Assembly: GCF_002846395.1 (NCBI RefSeq)
Contig: NZ_PJMU01000001.1
Span: 124,001-188,000, forward strand
Source of the DNA: Pontibacter ramchanderi
Lineage (GTDB): Bacteria; Bacteroidota; Bacteroidia; Cytophagales; Hymenobacteraceae
Direction: 5' to 3'
DNA: 64,000 nucleotides
The notes under the pieces are model-generated. The model ran no database searches. It was not told where the DNA came from and saw nothing but the letters and a program-made list of their open reading frames with translations. Positions within the stretch are counted from its first letter, which is position 1, and the number at the start of each line of letters is the position of its first letter. Of the stretch, positions 4,581 to 51,778 are shown piece by piece. The position numbers were made by a program, and so were the translations under genes.

Positions 4581-6212
4581 ATGAAGCGAACCTTTGCAGG
4601 TATGCAGGACCATACCTTGGTGGCCGTGTTGCTTCTTGTGCTGTTACTGGCCTTGCTCTACAACCTGGGAGGCTGGGGCGTCATCGAAACGAGCGAAGCC
4701 CGCTATGCCGAGATCAGTCGCGAAATGCTGGTGCGCGGCGAATGGCTGCACCCGCGTCTGCTCGGCATTCAGCACTTCCACAAGCCACCTGTCACCTACC
4801 TGATCTCGGCGGCAGGCATGGGCCTGTTCGGGGTGAATGCGTTTGGCGTGCGTTTTTTTCTGCAGTTCTCCCTGCTGGCACAAGCCCTGCTGGTCTACCT
4901 GATCGCCAACGAATTATTTCAATCGCGCAGGATCGCCTTAACCGCCCTTGTCATTTATGTCACCATTCCGGCCGTGCTCATCGCTGCCCGTAACCTGACC
5001 ACCGATTCCTTTCTGGCGACATTTGAGTTACTGGCCATCTGGGCCTGGCTTAGGTATAAACCTGTCAAAAAAGTAGGCTGGCTATACCTGTTTTATCTAG
5101 CCCTGGCGCTAGCCTTTCTCACCAAAGGGCCGGTGGGGCTGATTTTCCCGGTGCTTGTCGCGATAGGGTATAGGCTGCCTCATGCTACCGGCAAGGCCAG
5201 CGTTTCGCACCACTTCATCGCCTTCCTGCTGTTTTTGTTGTTGAGCGCATCCTGGTACGTGTACCTCATGTGGCAGGACCGGCAATTTGTCGACTACTTT
5301 TTCCTGAACCACATCGTGAAGCGCTATACCAGTCCCGAAACCTTCAGCCGTTCCGAGCCCTGGTGGTTTTACATCGCCTATATTCCGCTCCTGAGTTTGC
5401 CCTGGTCAGCCATGCTCTTGCTATACCTGCGTAAACTCCGCCTGCTTTCAGTAAATCATAAGCGCTTGTTTTTTCTCTGGCTGCTGGTGCCTTTGCTTTT
5501 TTTCTCTTTCTCCAGTTCTAAGCTTATCCTGTATGTGCTGCCCATGCTCGCAGGTATAGCCTTGCTGGTTTCCTGGCTGTTGCACCAGCTGTCTCTCAAA
5601 GAGCTTCGCATAATCTCCATTTTCACTTTCGTATACCTGGGGTTGTTGGGGCTCGGGTTACTGTTGCTGCGCTGGCTGCCTACTGATTTAAGCGTCCCGT
5701 TGCCGCTGGTTGGCGTTGCAGCGCTGATGCTGGTGGTGCTATACCTGATCTGGCGTTTTGCAAACCCGGGGGTAGGGCAGGTGACGGGTGCAGCACTTGC
5801 CTTCACACTGCTCCTCTTGCCCTTTTCGACGCATTTATTGGGGGCTAACGGCGAGCAAATAAAATCCAGTAAAGAACTGGCCGACCTGATCAGGGAAAAA
5901 GGCCTGCAGGGCAGAACCATTGTTGTGTATGATCGCTTGCTTCCTTCGCTGGCCTTTGAGTTGAACAAGGATATCGTTTCGATTAGCGATGAGCACCACA
6001 GCCTTATCCGCGAAACACAGTTCGAGCAAAATGAAGCATGGCGCAACTACCTGCTCCGCCTTCAGGATAAACAGGATTCGGTCAGGATTCAGAATTTGCT
6101 CCAGCATCATGCGGTGCTGGTTTCCAAGAAAGCCCTTCCTATAAAAAGGAATTGGCTGAGCACGCCGTTTACCCAAAAAAAGCAGGTAGGAGTGTGGATC
6201 GTCTATTACTGA
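4581..6212 (+). CDS. ArnT-like glycosyltransferase family 39 protein
   Basis: Integral membrane glycosyltransferase (543 aa) of the PMT/ArnT (GT39/GT83) superfamily, which moves a sugar from a polyprenyl-phosphate donor to lipid A or another envelope acceptor on the periplasmic side. Typical features are the first periplasmic loop with SEARYAEISREML followed by HFHKPP, about 10-12 hydrophobic helices (including the run near residues 170-230), and a short soluble C-terminal domain from about 425. It starts 6 bases after the LAB_N gene, completing the operon. The acceptor (lipid A, capsule or protein) cannot be decided here. Confidence 0.88.
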   Translation: MKRTFAGMQDHTLVAVLLLVLLLALLYNLGGWGVIETSEARYAEISREMLVRGEWLHPRLLGIQHFHKPPVTYLISAAGMGLFGVNAFGVRFFLQFSLLAQALLVYLIANELFQSRRIALTALVIYVTIPAVLIAARNLTTDSFLATFELLAIWAWLRYKPVKKVGWLYLFYLALALAFLTKGPVGLIFPVLVAIGYRLPHATGKASVSHHFIAFLLFLLLSASWYVYLMWQDRQFVDYFFLNHIVKRYTSPETFSRSEPWWFYIAYIPLLSLPWSAMLLLYLRKLRLLSVNHKRLFFLWLLVPLLFFSFSSSKLILYVLPMLAGIALLVSWLLHQLSLKELRIISIFTFVYLGLLGLGLLLLRWLPTDLSVPLPLVGVAALMLVVLYLIWRFANPGVGQVTGAALAFTLLLLPFSTHLLGANGEQIKSSKELADLIREKGLQGRTIVVYDRLLPSLAFELNKDIVSISDEHHSLIRETQFEQNEAWRNYLLRLQDKQDSVRIQNLLQHHAVLVSKKALPIKRNWLSTPFTQKKQVGVWIVYY

Positions 6213-28122: not shown

Positions 28123-29577
28123 TTAGGGTACAGCGGTTGCAATCAGTCCCTGAATCACCTGCAGCAGCCCAGAAGGGTATACACCGATGTACACCAGCAA
28201 CAGGGCCAGCACTGTCAGGGTGCCTACGCTGGCCACGTATATGGAAGGCCGTAGTTTGCCGCGCGGGTCTGCCTCAACTTCCGCCTCTGGCTGCTGGAAC
28301 ATGACAGCTACGATGCGGATGTAATAGAACAGACCGATAACACTGTTCAGCGCCAGCATCACTACCAGCAGCCACATCTGTGTGTTCACGCCCGCGGCCA
28401 GTATATAGAACTTGCCCACAAAGCCTGCTGTGAGTGGTATACCTGCCAGCGAGAGCAGCATGGCTGTGAATACCGCCGCCGTCCAGGGCCGGCGCCAGAG
28501 CAGGGCACGGTAGTCCTCGAGTTGCTCTGCATCGCGCTCCTTATCTGAGAGCATGGCTACGACGCCGAAGGCCCCGACGGTGGTGATGAAGTAAGCCACG
28601 AGGTAAAAGGTCACTGCCTCTACACCCATCTGGTTGCCCGCCAGAAAAGCCACCAGCAGATAGCCCAGGTGCGCGATGGAGGAGTAGGCGAGGATACGTT
28701 TGACGTTACGCTGCAGCAGGGCCAGCAGGTTACCCGCCAACATGGAGGCAATCGCCACGATGGTAAAAATTAACACAAGGGTCGGGTAGCGGAAACCGTC
28801 GACTTCCATGAAGAACCGAATCAGCACGCCCAGCACCCCGCCTTTGGAAACCGTGGCAATAAAAGCCGTCACCGGGGCAGGCGCTCCTTCATACACATCC
28901 GGTGCCCACATATGGAAAGGAACCACACTCAACTTGAATCCTATACCTACAAACATCATCCCGAAGCCGGTCAGGAGCAACAGCGGCTGTTCGGTGAAAT
29001 TGGCGATGGCTGCGGCTATACCTGCAAACTCCATGGTACCGGTGCTGGCGTATACCAGCGCCATCCCGAAGAGCAGGAAAGCCGAGGAGAAAGCTGCCAG
29101 GATCAGGTATTTGATGCCTGCCTCGTCGGAGCGCTCGCGGGTGCGTAAGTAGGCAATAAGGGCATAAAGCGAAACGCTCAGGATTTCCAAACCTAAGAAA
29201 AGCGAAGCAAAATGGGTGCTGATGACCAGCACACATGCCCCAATGGTCGCGAGCAGGAGCAGGAGGTAATACTCTTCCTTGCGCTCCTCCCTTTGCTCAA
29301 AATAAGCATAGGACAGCATGCTGATGAGCAGGGCCGTGAGTAGGATCATGCCGATGTAGAAGACGCCGAATCCATCCACCACCAACAGCGGCTCAATGGT
29401 ATAGCGGCCCACATCGCGCAGTTCAAACAAAGAGGCAAAAGCCGCCAGAAAAGAAACGGCCGTGATCACGTACATGATCTTGTGGTTGCGCCCCACGGCA
29501 ATCACCAGCATGGCCACCAGCACCGCGAAGGTGAGGATGAGCAGCGGCATGAGGTGTTGGAAATCAGTCAGGGTCAT
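28123..29577 (-). CDS. nuoN: NADH-quinone oxidoreductase subunit N
   Basis: Antiporter-like membrane subunit (484 aa) of respiratory complex I, about 13-14 transmembrane helices. Typical signatures: LFLGLEILSVSLYALIAY with the conserved Glu of helix 5, the SAFLLFGMALVY helix, lysine helix FKLSVVPFHMWAPDVYEGAP, and KRILAYSSIAHLGY. It is the last gene of the operon, 6 bases after nuoM, followed by a terminator. Confidence 0.96.
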   Translation of the reverse strand: MTLTDFQHLMPLLILTFAVLVAMLVIAVGRNHKIMYVITAVSFLAAFASLFELRDVGRYTIEPLLVVDGFGVFYIGMILLTALLISMLSYAYFEQREERKEEYYLLLLLATIGACVLVISTHFASLFLGLEILSVSLYALIAYLRTRERSDEAGIKYLILAAFSSAFLLFGMALVYASTGTMEFAGIAAAIANFTEQPLLLLTGFGMMFVGIGFKLSVVPFHMWAPDVYEGAPAPVTAFIATVSKGGVLGVLIRFFMEVDGFRYPTLVLIFTIVAIASMLAGNLLALLQRNVKRILAYSSIAHLGYLLVAFLAGNQMGVEAVTFYLVAYFITTVGAFGVVAMLSDKERDAEQLEDYRALLWRRPWTAAVFTAMLLSLAGIPLTAGFVGKFYILAAGVNTQMWLLVVMLALNSVIGLFYYIRIVAVMFQQPEAEVEADPRGKLRPSIYVASVGTLTVLALLLVYIGVYPSGLLQVIQGLIATAVP

Positions 29578-29580
29578 GGC

Positions 29581-29622
29581 TTGTCAATTTGAAGATTTAA
29601 AAATTTGGAGATGTGAAGATGG
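29581..29622 (-). repeat. Degenerate 8-bp tandem array across the nuoM stop codon
   Basis: On the minus strand the units read CATCTTCA, CATCTCCA, AATTTTTA, AATCTTCA, AATTGACA, with strict 8-base phase. The array overlaps the last dozen codons of nuoM. Confidence 0.6.
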
Positions 29623-34463: not shown

Positions 34464-34854
34464 AAGTGCTCCTTTCGTTTATTTTGTCTGTTCCAACTGT
34501 CCCTTGTAGGTATAGTCGATGTAATCTCCACAACTATCCCCTTGAGGGGATTATAGGGGTGTTCACCATGCACGATTGTCATCCCCCTGCCCCCAAGGGG
34601 GACTTTTTTCTAGTATTTGCTCTCGCTCGCGTCCCGCGGGTGTGTGCTATTGGGCGGACTCTGGCCGCTTTAGTTTGTACTCGACAGCACAAGTGGCGGG
34701 ACGCCACTGGATAGCTCACACTCGCCAGAGGCGAGCGAGGGCGTGAGATGTAAGCTCTTGGTAAAAGACTTCCTAACTGGCTTTACACCCCTATGGTCCC
34801 CTCAAGGGGACAGTTTCGTGTTAGCCAATCTTTAACTCTCAAATTCCTAAACTC
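34464..34854. other. Repeat-filled spacer between nuoH and nuoI
   Basis: About 390 bases with no gene. Nearly all of it is an imperfect nested inverted repeat (34532-34815) plus an 8-bp tandem array at the nuoH stop. The nuoI ribosome-binding site lies at its nuoI end. Confidence 0.75.
34532..34815. repeat. 284-bp MITE-like nested inverted-repeat element
   Basis: Outer 31-base arms (34532-34562 and 34785-34815) are inverted copies matching at 28 of 31 positions. Inside, a second large imperfect palindrome (about 34615-34748) pairs CTCTCGCTCGCGTCCCGC with the reverse complement of the segment ending GGCGAGCGAGGGCG. No transposase or clear target duplication was seen. Confidence 0.75.
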
Positions 34855-34870
34855 CTAAACTCCTTCAAAC
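34831..34870 (-). repeat. Degenerate 8-bp tandem array across the nuoH stop codon
   Basis: Plus-strand units are TTTAACTC, TCAAATTC, CTAAACTC, CTAAACTC, CTTCAAAC. The nuoH stop codon (34855-34857) lies inside the array. Confidence 0.65.
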
Positions 34871-40304: not shown

Positions 40305-40328
40305 GTTGTTAAAGGGTTAAATTGTTAA
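40305..40328 (-). repeat. Three 8-bp repeat units abutting the nuoE start codon
   Basis: Plus-strand units GTTGTTAA, AGGGTTAA, ATTGTTAA occupy exactly the bases upstream of the nuoE ATG, where a ribosome-binding site would be expected. Confidence 0.6.
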
Positions 40329-40350: not shown

Positions 40351-41103
40351 TTAGGCTCCCTTCCCTAGTTTGAGTCCGGCGGTGAGGCCCACGTTAAATC
40401 CGCTTATCTGCACTTTCGTTTGCCTGAATTCAGAGCGATAGTTCTCTGGTTCGGGTAAACCGATGCCTAGCTGGTGCTCAGCTACAAAGGGGCCAGTCTC
40501 CGATTTTGGGGCAATGCGACCGTTTACTTTGAAAGCCATAAACCAGCTCGACTTGTCTATCAGGTGCAGGGTATAACTAGCGTTAAAACCGGCAAGCCAT
40601 TTGGTCTGAGCATCTGTTGAATTGCTACTAGCATCATCCTTCACATGGTGCAGCAGAAGCGCAGGTCCGACGCTGAGATAGCCATTCCGGTTCTTCGAAC
40701 CGAGCATATAATTCAGTGATGCGGACCAGATGGCACTTCTCAGCGAAATGTAGTTTCCTATGCCGATGTTATCGTAGCCATTTACCTCGATGTAGTCCAC
40801 CAAACCAATTTCAAGTGATGTACCTTGCCGGCCTTTTAGCCAGTAATTACCGGTTAGATGGAGGGTCGGGATTTTACTGCTGTTCGGATGAGCTGTATTA
40901 CCGCTACTAAACCATCCTCCCGATTGTGTATCGCCCAGTCCGGAAGCACGCATTTGGTCTTCCATATTGCTTTGTGGGCCCATCAGGCCAACACCCCCCG
41001 TCGCAGACAGGTATAGCCGCTTCACCTGATTATCATCAAGCTCCTGCGCTCGTAGACCAAAGGCAACCATACAGATCAATATGCAAAACCCAACTCTAAG
41101 CAT
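40351..41103 (-). CDS. Unrecognised secreted beta-barrel-like protein inside the nuo operon
   Basis: I do not recognise this protein (250 aa). It has a signal peptide (MLRVGFCILICMVAFGLRAQ) and then alternating amphipathic strands with many Gly/Ser/aromatic residues (for example SLRSAIWSASLNYMLGSK, GYLSVGPALLLHHV, FNVGLTAGLKLG), as in small outer-membrane beta-barrels. It lies between nuoCD and nuoE on the same strand, flanked by 8-bp repeat arrays on both sides, suggesting an insertion into the ancestral nuo order. No complex I subunit similarity is visible, and no function is assigned. Confidence 0.7.
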   Translation of the reverse strand: MLRVGFCILICMVAFGLRAQELDDNQVKRLYLSATGGVGLMGPQSNMEDQMRASGLGDTQSGGWFSSGNTAHPNSSKIPTLHLTGNYWLKGRQGTSLEIGLVDYIEVNGYDNIGIGNYISLRSAIWSASLNYMLGSKNRNGYLSVGPALLLHHVKDDASSNSTDAQTKWLAGFNASYTLHLIDKSSWFMAFKVNGRIAPKSETGPFVAEHQLGIGLPEPENYRSEFRQTKVQISGFNVGLTAGLKLGKGA

Positions 41104-41110
41104 CTACATT

Positions 41111-41174
41111 CTATTTCAATCACTCATTCGCTCAATCACTCAATCACTAACTCACTAACTCACCAAATCAAAAA
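41111..41174 (-). repeat. Eight-unit 8-bp tandem array between nuoCD and the inserted gene
   Basis: Plus-strand units CTATTTCA, ATCACTCA, TTCGCTCA, ATCACTCA, ATCACTAA, CTCACTAA, CTCACCAA, ATCAAAAA keep exact 8-base phase for 64 bases and end exactly at the nuoCD stop codon (41175-41177). Confidence 0.8.
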
Positions 41175-42923
41175 TCACCTGTCTATATCTGCCAGCACAT
41201 AATCCATCGCCCCGAGTATCGAGAGCAAGTCCGCTACGGTATAGCCACGGCTGATGTAGGGGAGCATTTGCATGTGGGGGAACGAGGGAGTGCGAATCCG
41301 TACCCGGTAAGGGGATGTGTTCCCGTCACTGGTCAAATAGTAGCCGTTGGCTCCTTTTGTCGCTTCGATGCAGCTCATGGCTTCGCCTGGCGGTATCACG
41401 GGCCCCCAGGTCACACCCAGAAAGTGCGTGATCAGGGTCTCGATATCGTGCATGGTGTTTTGCTTGACGGGTGGCGTGGTGATGGGATGGTCTGACTTAT
41501 AAGGACCGGCCGGCATGTTCTTCACACACTGCTCGATGATGCGCAGACTCTGACGCATCTCAGCTACCCGCACCACGGCCCGGTCGTAGCAGTCGCCGTT
41601 GGTGGCTGTGGGCACCTCGAAGTCGAATAGTTCGTAGCCCGAGTAGGGACGCATTTTACGGAAGTCCCACTCAAAGCCGCAGGCACGCAGGTTGGCGCCT
41701 GTTACGCCCCATTCAATGGCTTCTTCTTTGGTAAAGATGCCGATACCGACCGTGCGGGCTTTGAAGATGCTGTTCTTCATCACCATCGCGTCGTACTCCT
41801 TCAGGCGTTTCGGGAAATAGTCGATGAAGCGCTGCACCAGTTGCTCCCAACCTTTGGGCAGGTCCTGTGCCACACCACCGATGCGGAACCAGTTCGGGTG
41901 CATGCGTCCGCCGCAAATGCCCTCGATGATGTCGAAGATCTTCTCGCGATCAGAGAACATATAAAACACCGGCGAGAGCTGCCCCACGTCCTGCGCAAAA
42001 GTGCCGTACCAAACGAGGTGACTGGCGATACGGAAAAGCTCGCACAACATGACGCGGATATACTTCACCCGTTCCGGCACTTCTATACCTGCGAGTTTCT
42101 CGACAGCCTGCAGGTAAGCCAGGTTATTCATCACGCCGCCGAGGTAATCCACGCGGTCGGTATAAGGGATGTAGGTATGCCAGGACTGGCGCTCACCCAT
42201 TTTCTCGGCACCACGGTGGTGAAAGCCGATATCAGGTATAGCGTCCACAATGTCTTCGCCATCCAACTGCAGAATAATGCGCAGTACACCGTGTGTGCCT
42301 GGGTGCTGCGGACCAATGTTGAGGAACATGAAATCGCTGTCGTCGCTTTGCCGCTGCAGCCCCCATTCTTCGGGTTTGAACTGCAAGGCCGATTGCTCCA
42401 GGTCTATCTTGTCGTCGTAAAGCTGGAAAGGCCCCATTTCAGTAGCGCGGGCCGGGTGCTCTTTGCGGAGCGGGTGGCCCACCCAGGTGCGGGGCATGAG
42501 GATGCGGGAAAGATGCGGATGGCCCTCGAAGCGAATGCCGAACATATCGTATACCTCGCGCTCGTACCAGTTGGCATTTTGCCAGAGTCCGCTAATGCTC
42601 GGGGCTTTCGGGAAGTCCTCGCGGAGGCCGGCCTTCAGTCGGATAAAGGTGTTGCGCTCAAACGAAAATAGGTGGTAGATGAGCGTGAAGCTGTATGGGA
42701 TATGGCCGTTCTCAGGTTTGCGGGTGCGTTCGTCTATGGCCGTCAGGTCGAAGAGGAGGGGGAAGGGCTGAGGCAGGTCGTGCTTCAGAAATTTTAGCAC
42801 TTCCGGCACGTGGTCCACAGGGAGCCAGAGGGTGATGATGTCATCCTTGGTGGTCTGCGTTTTGAACGTGTCTTCGCCGTACCGCGACTTGAGTTGCTCC
42901 AGTATGCCGCTGTTGTTGTTCAT
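41175..42923 (-). CDS. nuoCD: NADH-quinone oxidoreductase fused subunits C and D
   Basis: Fused NuoC-NuoD protein (582 aa). Residues about 1-175 are the 30-kDa subunit (signature [25 protein letters not shown]); about 195-582 are the 49-kDa subunit, with [26 protein letters not shown] (quinone-site His), [21 protein letters not shown], and the C-terminal YVLADIDR. The fusion is typical of E. coli-type operons. It is separated from nuoB upstream by a 516-base repeat region. Confidence 0.96.
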
Positions 42924-43439
42924 GGGAGGAGGCCGTTAATATTTGATGTATGCTAACTCATGTACTCTCTTTCTTTTTATGCTAAGTTTATACTTATACC
43001 TATGTCTGTTTCTTGCTAGCGTAGCAACTGCTCTGTGCTTTTGATAACCTACGTTGCTTTGTAGCTTGCCCTGGCCGGGCGGGCCTTACTTTTTTCCTTG
43101 ATGAAAAAAGTAAGCAAAAAAATCAAGACGATTTTGAACTCGCTGACCGCTCAAACAAAAAATCGTCGTTCGTGCACCTGGCACCTATATCTATTTCATA
43201 GCATCAGTGCAAGTTACCTAGCAATGCGTGACAGTGGTCTGTGTGGTCTTGGCTACGAAGTTTATACTTTTGAAATAGCCAACCACAGATTCCCCGCCTT
43301 AAATAAGGAGGGGTTAGAGGCGGTTGGACCCGGTATCTTCGAGAATCCTGTTAATCCATAAATCCTGAAAATCCTTGGGGTAGGGGCCCTATATGAAGAT
43401 TCAGACAGCCAACTCCCAAACTCCCCAACTCCTAAACTT
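42924..43439. other. Repeat-filled spacer between nuoB and nuoCD
   Basis: 516 bases with no credible gene. Contents: extragenic repeat copy 2 (43055-43235) with a perfect 12-bp-stem hairpin (43085-43114), an AATCC-type tandem stretch (about 43341-43376), and an 8-bp array at the nuoB stop (43409-43448). Open frames here (43098-43361 on +) lie within the repeats. Confidence 0.7.
43055..43235 (+). repeat. Extragenic repeat, copy 2 (homologous to 23240-23475)
   Basis: Shares blocks with the 23-kb copy in the same order. It contains a perfect inverted repeat, CTTACTTTTTTC...GAAAAAAGTAAG (43085-43114), which copy 1 has partly lost to inserted C-rich sequence. Confidence 0.65.
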
Positions 43440-43448
43440 CTATATTTC
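43409..43448 (-). repeat. Degenerate 8-bp tandem array across the nuoB stop codon
   Basis: Plus-strand units CCAACTCC, CAAACTCC, CCAACTCC, TAAACTTC, TATATTTC in exact 8-base phase. The nuoB stop (43440-43442) lies within the array. Confidence 0.7.
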
Positions 43449-50409: not shown

Positions 50410-51534
50410 ATGAAATATTTTCTCGAAGCAAAATACGTCGCCCTTGTTCCGCTCTGGTTACTGCTTGCTTGCGTTATACCGGGTAAAACAGGTATAGCCG
50501 CAACCCCTGCGGTTGCCAACACAACGCCCATCGTGCTGCGCAACGAAAAACTGCCTTTCACGCCCCGCGAGTTTTACATAGCCGATGTGATCGATGAACG
50601 AACGGATAAAAAAGCTGTAGCCTACCTGCTGCCGTTAACCGGAGTGGCCAAAGCGCAGCCTGTCGATCTGCAGGGCGGGGGCTACCAGGCTTTGCGCGTT
50701 TTCATCGACAAAGGAATACCCGCCAACAAGTTGCTGCGGCCTGTAGTAATCCGCCTGAAAGAAATGCAGGTGAGAGAAGCCCCTGCTGCGGCTGGCCGTG
50801 TGGCAGGTAGCATTGCCATAGAAATGGCTTTTGAAACGCAACAGGATGGCGAGACAGTACAGCTGCTGCAGTACAAGGGGGGGGGACGCTACGAACGCCC
50901 GATTGGCCGAAACGAGGTAACGGAGCCTGCGCTGCGGCAGTCTATCACGGAGGCTTTGCGCTACCTGAACACCTGGATGGACCGCGAAGCGAGTACTAAC
51001 CCGAAATTGGCCAAAGGTATAAACGTGACTTTTACCGACTACAATTCATCTTCCGACCAGGATACCGTGTTTTACAACCCAGGCAGACCGCTGAACTGGA
51101 ACGACTTCAAGGCAGACATCAACCGTACAAGCCGCTTTTCAGCGACTGTATTTCCAAGTTTTGCCTACGAGGGTGAGACGGAGGTGAAAGACGGCATCAT
51201 CCACCTTCACCTGAATATGAAGGTATACGTGCTGAAGAGCTCATCCTGGGTGAAGGATAACGCTAAAGATTCTTATGGTCTCAACCATGAGCAAAGGCAT
51301 TTTGATATCGTGAAACTGGTTTCAGAGCGTTTTAAGCAGAAGATAAAGCCTGATGAGCTATCGCTGACAGATTATAACAGCAATGTACAGTATCACTTCA
51401 TTGAGTCGTTCCGTGAGATGAACCGACTGCAGGAGCAGTACGACTCCGAAACCCGCCACGGCCTCGACAAAGCCGCCCAGGAACGCTGGAACCAAACCTT
51501 GGATGCGCAACTTAAGGCCATTGGAGCCAAGTGA
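50410..51534 (+). CDS. Secreted protein with C-terminal DUF922-like HExxH domain
   Basis: Exported protein (374 aa) with an N-terminal signal segment (VALVPLWLLLACVIPG). The N-terminal half (about 40-195) is a beta-rich domain I do not recognise (REFYIADVIDERTDKKAVAYL). The C-terminal half (about 225-374) resembles DUF922, a putative Zn-peptidase, with LNWNDFKAD, SATVFPSFAYE and the zinc motif HEQRH (HExxH) near residue 296 followed by FDIVKLVSERFK. Proteolytic activity is suggested by the motif only. An 8-bp repeat array follows its stop. Confidence 0.75.
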   Translation: MKYFLEAKYVALVPLWLLLACVIPGKTGIAATPAVANTTPIVLRNEKLPFTPREFYIADVIDERTDKKAVAYLLPLTGVAKAQPVDLQGGGYQALRVFIDKGIPANKLLRPVVIRLKEMQVREAPAAAGRVAGSIAIEMAFETQQDGETVQLLQYKGGGRYERPIGRNEVTEPALRQSITEALRYLNTWMDREASTNPKLAKGINVTFTDYNSSSDQDTVFYNPGRPLNWNDFKADINRTSRFSATVFPSFAYEGETEVKDGIIHLHLNMKVYVLKSSSWVKDNAKDSYGLNHEQRHFDIVKLVSERFKQKIKPDELSLTDYNSNVQYHFIESFREMNRLQEQYDSETRHGLDKAAQERWNQTLDAQLKAIGAK

Positions 51535-51540
51535 GGTTTT

Positions 51541-51580
51541 GAAGTTAGAAAGTTAAAAAGGTAGAAAGTGTAAAAGATGT
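51541..51580 (+). repeat. Degenerate 8-bp tandem array after the DUF922-like gene
   Basis: Units GAAGTTAG, AAAGTTAA, AAAGGTAG, AAAGTGTA, AAAGATGT start 6 bases after the stop codon, in exact 8-base phase. Confidence 0.7.
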
Positions 51581-51616
51581 TTCACTTGCTGCACTAACCC
51601 TTTCCATAGATAGAAG

Positions 51617-51660
51617 AAAGGGTATGACCAGACATATTGCCTGGCCATACCCTTTTTTTT
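51617..51660. terminator. Bidirectional terminator between convergent genes
   Basis: Stem arms AAAGGGTATG.CCAG (51617-51630) and CTGG.CATACCCTTT (51641-51655) with one internal mismatch and a 10-base loop, followed by T-runs on the plus side and A-rich sequence on the other. Confidence 0.8.
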
Positions 51661-51722
51661 TGTTTTGTGGTTTGCTCATCAGGAGGAATCTATAAGCTTG
51701 GTCCACTACAGGTTCAAAATCA

Positions 51723-51778
51723 TGAACTCTGAAACTTTCTACTTTTTTAACTTACAACCTCTCTAACTCAATTAACTT
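51723..51778 (-). repeat. Degenerate 8-bp tandem array across the M1 peptidase stop
   Basis: Plus-strand units TGAACTCT, GAAACTTT, CTACTTTT, TTAACTTA, CAACCTCT, CTAACTCA, ATTAACTT keep 8-base phase. The peptidase stop (51772-51774) lies in the last unit. The array is inverted relative to 51541-51580, with similar words. Confidence 0.7.

Follow-up and report, generated by a model that had tools for sequence, protein, structure and literature searches.

The intergenic DNA of Pontibacter ramchanderi bears tandem arrays of 8-bp units, together with 7-bp arrays of the same architecture, far beyond what is expected by chance, but these arrays are not a stop-codon feature. They border ORFs at starts and stops alike, often as an inverted pair of arms around one gap, and show a nearly invariant strand handedness. 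The arrays are, in our judgement somewhat probably, ORF-border minisatellites with 7- or 8-bp units that have been expanded by slippage, copied between gaps and tolerated up to the edge of the ORF.

Arrays at nuo genes and at a convergent gap

The window, that is, the whole stretch of 64,000 nucleotides that was analysed, was examined together with 40 stretches of 20 kb from the same 4.43-Mb genome, giving a sample of 864 kb. Fifteen of the 40 stretches were picked at or near known matches, and the other 564 kb, window included, made up the unpicked part. Genes were called with a simple ORF model, so that starts are approximate, and several computed starts were mended by the adjoining array. 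Pfam identified in the window nuoM/N-type antiporter subunits, nuoH, nuoCD, nuoB, nuoE and an M1 peptidase; the DUF922 match of the gene called DUF922-like lies below the curated cut-off. A search of the window against Rfam gave no match at gathering scores, leaving the arrays without a match to a known structured RNA family. The arrays at the nuo genes were as follows.

29581-29621, minus strand: nuoN start-side arm inside the 3' end of nuoM (nuoN ATG at 29577)
34829-34864, minus strand: nuoH stop-side arm, GAGTTTAG family, over the last codons and the stop (period-8 score 16)
40308-40328, minus strand: nuoE start-side arm (weak), sense TTAACAATTTAACCCTTTAAC directly upstream of the ATG (period-8 score 9)
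41116-41170, minus strand: nuoCD stop-side arm, GTGATTGA family (period-8 score 31)
43411-43448, minus strand: nuoB stop-side arm, GAGTTTGG/AAGTTTAG family, crossing the stop codon (period-8 score 18)

The nuoCD array, described as the clearest in an earlier note made from the sequence alone, was indeed the strongest period-8 array of the window; it begins 4 nt past the TGA (41175-41177) and takes up the greater part of the 71 bp before the next ORF. The weak nuoE arm was missing from that note's list. TRF gives an 8-bp row at 40306-40328, and in several Pontibacter species a similar family stands upstream of nuoE. The stop of nuoB bears arrays in many species of the genus.

The earlier note had placed arrays at six stop codons and taken them to be non-coding. 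The assignments to the stops of nuoCD, nuoH, nuoB and the DUF922-like gene stand. The nuoM array, in contrast, is the start-side arm of nuoN and lies within an ORF, where it is translated into the end of NuoM (...PSSHLQIFKSSN, followed by the stop). NuoM C-terminal tails past about residue 500 are array-encoded and rich in S, N, P and K (window 29581-29621; L179-L189). The DUF922-like and M1 peptidase arrays are not independent either; they are the two inverted arms of a single convergent gap (51535-51771), with these features.

51532-51568, plus strand: left arm, GAAGTTAGAAAGTTAA family, flush with the DUF922-like stop (period-8 score 15)
51617-51663, no strand assigned: separate canonical terminator hairpin between both arms (stem 51617-51655)
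51729-51771, minus strand: right arm, flush with the M1 peptidase stop, degenerate octamers complementary to the left arm

Taken alone, the M1 arm falls under the threshold for a single array, and its case is its complementarity to the partner arm (score 22, rank 4 of 56). That arms act as intrinsic terminators was considered and rejected; a separate canonical terminator was present in 6 of 11 array-bearing convergent gaps and in 45 of 69 array-less ones.

Other features were seen around these genes. Between arms, the gap interiors (e.g. window 34464-34828 and L158:7425-7697) contain recurring REP-like palindromes (GTAGGGACAGGTCGCGACCTGTCC, CTGTCCCCTTGAGGGGACTATAGGGGTG, GCTGGTGCGAGCTTGTAGCTCGTACC). 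The junction of nuoCD and nuoE is a hot spot for insertions, with a 250-aa gene (window 40351-41103) that is also found in near relatives (L035, L037), and with a different ORF, alpha/beta hydrolase-like by eye, in L050, L051 and L063. A short ORF of about 91 aa lies between nuoB and nuoCD, upstream of position 5001, in some Pontibacter species (L041, L042, L048) and was not called in others.

Abundance and unit families

Of the periods from 4 to 24, only period 8 and its multiples 16 and 24 were strongly enriched in the window. At an array score of at least 14, the intergenic DNA of the 864-kb sample contained 43 period-8 and 18 period-7 arrays, compared to 0.2 and 0 in shuffled intergenic DNA and to 0 and 0.23 in coding DNA scaled to equal length. 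The octamer periodicity described in the earlier note was thus far beyond chance, although period 7 has to be added to it. A period-8 signal away from stops, which the note had named as refuting its claim, appeared at starts but not inside genes. In the unpicked 564 kb, 17 of 316 gaps bore arrays at the per-gap cut-off (score of at least 12), which suggests a genome-wide total of roughly 100-150 array-bearing gaps.

Units in this genome include GTGATTGA, GAGTTTAG, GAAAGTTA and others. Octamer families recur across loci and genera, and species differ in the unit family that occupies an orthologous junction. The nuoCD array alone had 34 blastn-similar places elsewhere in the genome. A minor heptamer family is TAACTG-like (CAGTTA/TAACTG, L015:2110-2253). 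When 296 genomes of the phylum were scanned for three consecutive GYGANTNA units, a pattern for which the reversed-pattern control is not independent, 10 matched, with dense matches in only this genome and one of the same family and sparse ones in a few others. The flush inverted architecture was also found, with other units, in samples of other Cytophagales and Bacteroidia that are too small for rates. In a distant member of the phylum, a 2.4-kb gap carries several long period-7 and period-8 arrays, with different families side by side (L175:4400-5300).

Flush edges, paired arms and handedness

In this genome, 35 arrays were flush with stops and 18 with starts, the start calls being less certain. 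In gaps of at least 150 bp, 37 flush arrays were observed against 13.0 expected under uniform placement; the corresponding values were 21 against 4.8 at Pontibacter nuo loci and 10 against 2.5 in another genome of the same family. Start-side arms (5'-...TCACTCAATCAAAA-ATG) are as flush as stop-side arms and of opposite strand composition. Arrays often form an inverted pair around the gap, with one arm at the left ORF and the reverse-complement family at the right ORF, whether the border is a stop or a start; an example is L018:10974-11131, which reads stop-TTGAATGAGTGATTGAGTGA ... TCACTCAATCACTCAATCAAAA-ATG. Both arms belonged to the same unit family in 17 of 18 two-armed gaps of this genome (7.8 expected) and in 6 of 6 of the same-family genome (64% GC; 2.7 expected).

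The G-richer strand ran 5' to 3' away from the adjoining ORF in 92 of the 96 flush arrays with unequal G and C (46/49, 17/17 and 29/30 in the three data sets), and between convergent genes in all 17. In stop borders that lack arrays, C (0.216) and G (0.218) are balanced; the asymmetry thus comes with the arrays and is no general trait of stop borders. Start borders are poor in G even where no array is present. Two explanations of the composition were set aside. The presence of stop codons in all frames, as a reason for C-free arms, cannot be extended to the published GGGAATC family. Rho rut arrays were considered for the C-rich, G-poor arms with regular spacing, but YC steps are few in some period-7 families, and within operons the C-rich arm lies ahead of starts.

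The partner arm in the same gap was no especially better match than arrays of the same family at other loci, which points to exchange between loci; compensatory pairing specific to the two arms of a gap was rejected on the same comparison.

Evolution at nuoM/nuoN and nuoCD-nuoE

The distance from a proline codon to the nuoN ATG was compared in 11 genomes, and was 45 bp in five, 29 bp in two, and 69, 93, 68 and 62 bp in one each; the L184 tail was counted as 45 (raw value 50), its anchor lying 5 nt early. Nine of the 11 genomes therefore fall on an 8-bp ladder with steps of -16, 0, +24 and +48, the exceptions being 62 and 68. The on-ladder expansions, 24 and 48 bp, both keep the frame. In more distant Pontibacter, the nuoM/nuoN junction shows either this tail array, or a start-side arm that lies behind repeats of another kind, or overlapping genes with no array.

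Between nuoCD and nuoE, most Pontibacter species have arrays flush with one or both ORFs, of families that differ between species and often between the two sides, whereas four species have clean spacers of 11-18 bp without arrays. In a nuoCD tree, these four sit in a clade whose other members and outgroups bear arrays, a distribution that favours repeated array loss as the probable source of the clean spacers, although the tree leaves several forks unresolved. A single-octamer indel between L050 and L051, noticed by eye, was dropped, as a MAFFT alignment did not reproduce it.

Origin of the arrays

Repeated local slippage or copying, one of the causes offered in the earlier note, is supported by the NuoM-tail changes, mostly in 8-bp steps, and by the recurrence of families genome-wide. 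Judging from the length steps between species at one locus, slippage or unequal exchange would add whole units to the arrays and remove them, and the shared families and family-matched arms suggest that recombination or template switching may carry copies of unit families between gaps. Such copying would give both arms of a gap usually the same family and would let the families at an orthologous gap turn over between species. Intolerance of the arrays by coding DNA would be the main reason for their ending at ORF edges, an open C-terminal tail such as that of NuoM being the exception, and a dedicated mechanism at stop codons or 3' ends would be unnecessary. Against the minisatellite origin, slippage alone does not account for a single strand rule that applies to starts and stops alike, to either gene direction and apparently to other phyla. 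Furthermore, arms of different families in one gap still follow the rule, as at nuoCD-nuoE, an outcome not expected of a simple copied palindrome, and two of the 11 tails (62 and 68 bp) do not fit the 8-bp ladder, all comparisons being at the species level.

A function in the RNA is the alternative that survives best, although we regard it as unlikely. Paired arms would form long hairpins that serve in the protection or processing of mRNA ends and keep neighbouring genes insulated from each other, and the G-poor start-side arm would provide an unstructured leader. Consistent with this, two-armed gaps fold far better than their shuffles (mean z -5.3, with 18 of 18 below -2, vs. -1.7 for array-less gaps), start borders are G-poor even where arrays are absent, and the same nuoB stop is occupied in many species. 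Strong folding, however, comes automatically with inverted repeats, divergent gaps are not clearly depleted of arrays (6/92 vs. 11/80 of convergent ones, p = 0.13), separate terminators persist, the arm in the same gap is not preferred over those at other loci, and single arms and array-free clean spacers are common.

It appears improbable that the arrays are the ends of a palindromic, MITE-like mobile element that inserts between ORFs. The genome-wide dispersal of families and the membership of inverted arms in one family would fit such an element, which, being palindromic, would also yield a fixed handedness; however, the interiors of the copies, compared by eye and not by alignment, are unlike in length and content, with no shared interior, and both single arms and gaps with arms of different families occur.

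A mechanism aimed at stop codons or at the 3' ends of transcripts, as the earlier note had suggested, is very hard to uphold: flush arrays are more numerous at stops than at starts, array periodicity continues through the stop codon (61 of 105 bases vs. a 30% background) and TGA is overused at array-bearing stops (11/35 vs. 83/502), but the equally flush start-side arms of complementary composition, with the two arms of a gap usually of one family, largely refute the link to termination. An ORF that enters a C-poor array ends there automatically, since such arrays are rich in stop codons.

Just as little weight is given to repeat addition at broken ends followed by joining, as in fused telomeres, where G-rich repeats on the 3' ends leaving each ORF would produce G-rich left and C-rich right arms; it would account for the constant unit length and for a handedness independent of gene direction, and some arms are nearly head-to-head (e.g. 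L018:7330-7448), but there is no enzyme or template to point to and unrelated sequence separates the arms in most gaps.

Relation to known repeats and implications

Short tandem repeats in intergenic DNA are familiar from the STRR repeats of Cyanobacteria. The nearest published relatives of the arrays described here are the heptamer repeats of Xanthomonas, Nostoc and Beggiatoaceae. The G-rich heptamers GGGAATC of Xanthomonas and GGGGA(C/T)T of Nostoc/Anabaena lie near ORFs, occupying the coding strand after a stop and the non-coding strand ahead of a start, whatever the orientation of the ORF, a rule that was left unexplained (Rehm et al., 2015; PMC4692102). As in those repeats, the arrays are intergenic, have short units and vary extensively in length and sequence between relatives (PMC4692102), and the Pontibacter arrays follow the same rule of strand and position (46:3, 17:0 and 29:1). 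In contrast to the Rehm heptamers, whose G runs form quadruplexes, they are mostly octamers without such regular G runs, with many families per genome and commonly with inverted arms at both gap ends; GGGAATC or GGGGA(C/T)T units with quadruplex potential were not among the units found here.

Direct repeats of the heptamer TAACTGA have been described in Beggiatoaceae, Cyanobacteria and some Bacteroidetes, where they abut start codons one way round, with one set directly past a stop codon reversed, and show 7-nt indels between strains (MacGregor, 2015; PMC4679880). They constitute a single near-invariant and mainly start-side heptamer, and the passages considered do not describe octamers or paired arms (PMC4679880); here, the main families are octamers and the TAACTG-like heptamer is only minor. 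The tandem repeats of archaeal Borg elements are intergenic or begin at the end of an ORF and encode disordered regions when inside ORFs (PMC9879509). Borg repeats are perfect, with an in-ORF unit that is a multiple of three (PMC9879509), whereas the in-frame changes in the NuoM tail correspond to three octamers, i.e. 24 bp. A literature search, with subscription papers mostly outside its reach, found no description of the two-armed octamer form in Bacteroidota.

With little confidence, we also raise a broader idea: a general process might add repeats of short units to the gaps between bacterial genes under a strict polarity, in which the G-richer strand always leaves the ORF 5' to 3', so that affected gaps resemble head-to-head fusions of repeat-capped ends, and the same process might lie behind the heptamer rules of Xanthomonas, Nostoc and Beggiatoaceae.

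Should the rule prove general, oddities reported separately in distant phyla would be one architecture, and its handedness would give genome comparison a precise question. The NuoM tail shows that such repeats can turn coding, the protein tail growing by 8 residues for every three octamers. Array edges mark the ends and starts of ORFs, and the arrays can mislead the annotation of C-termini.
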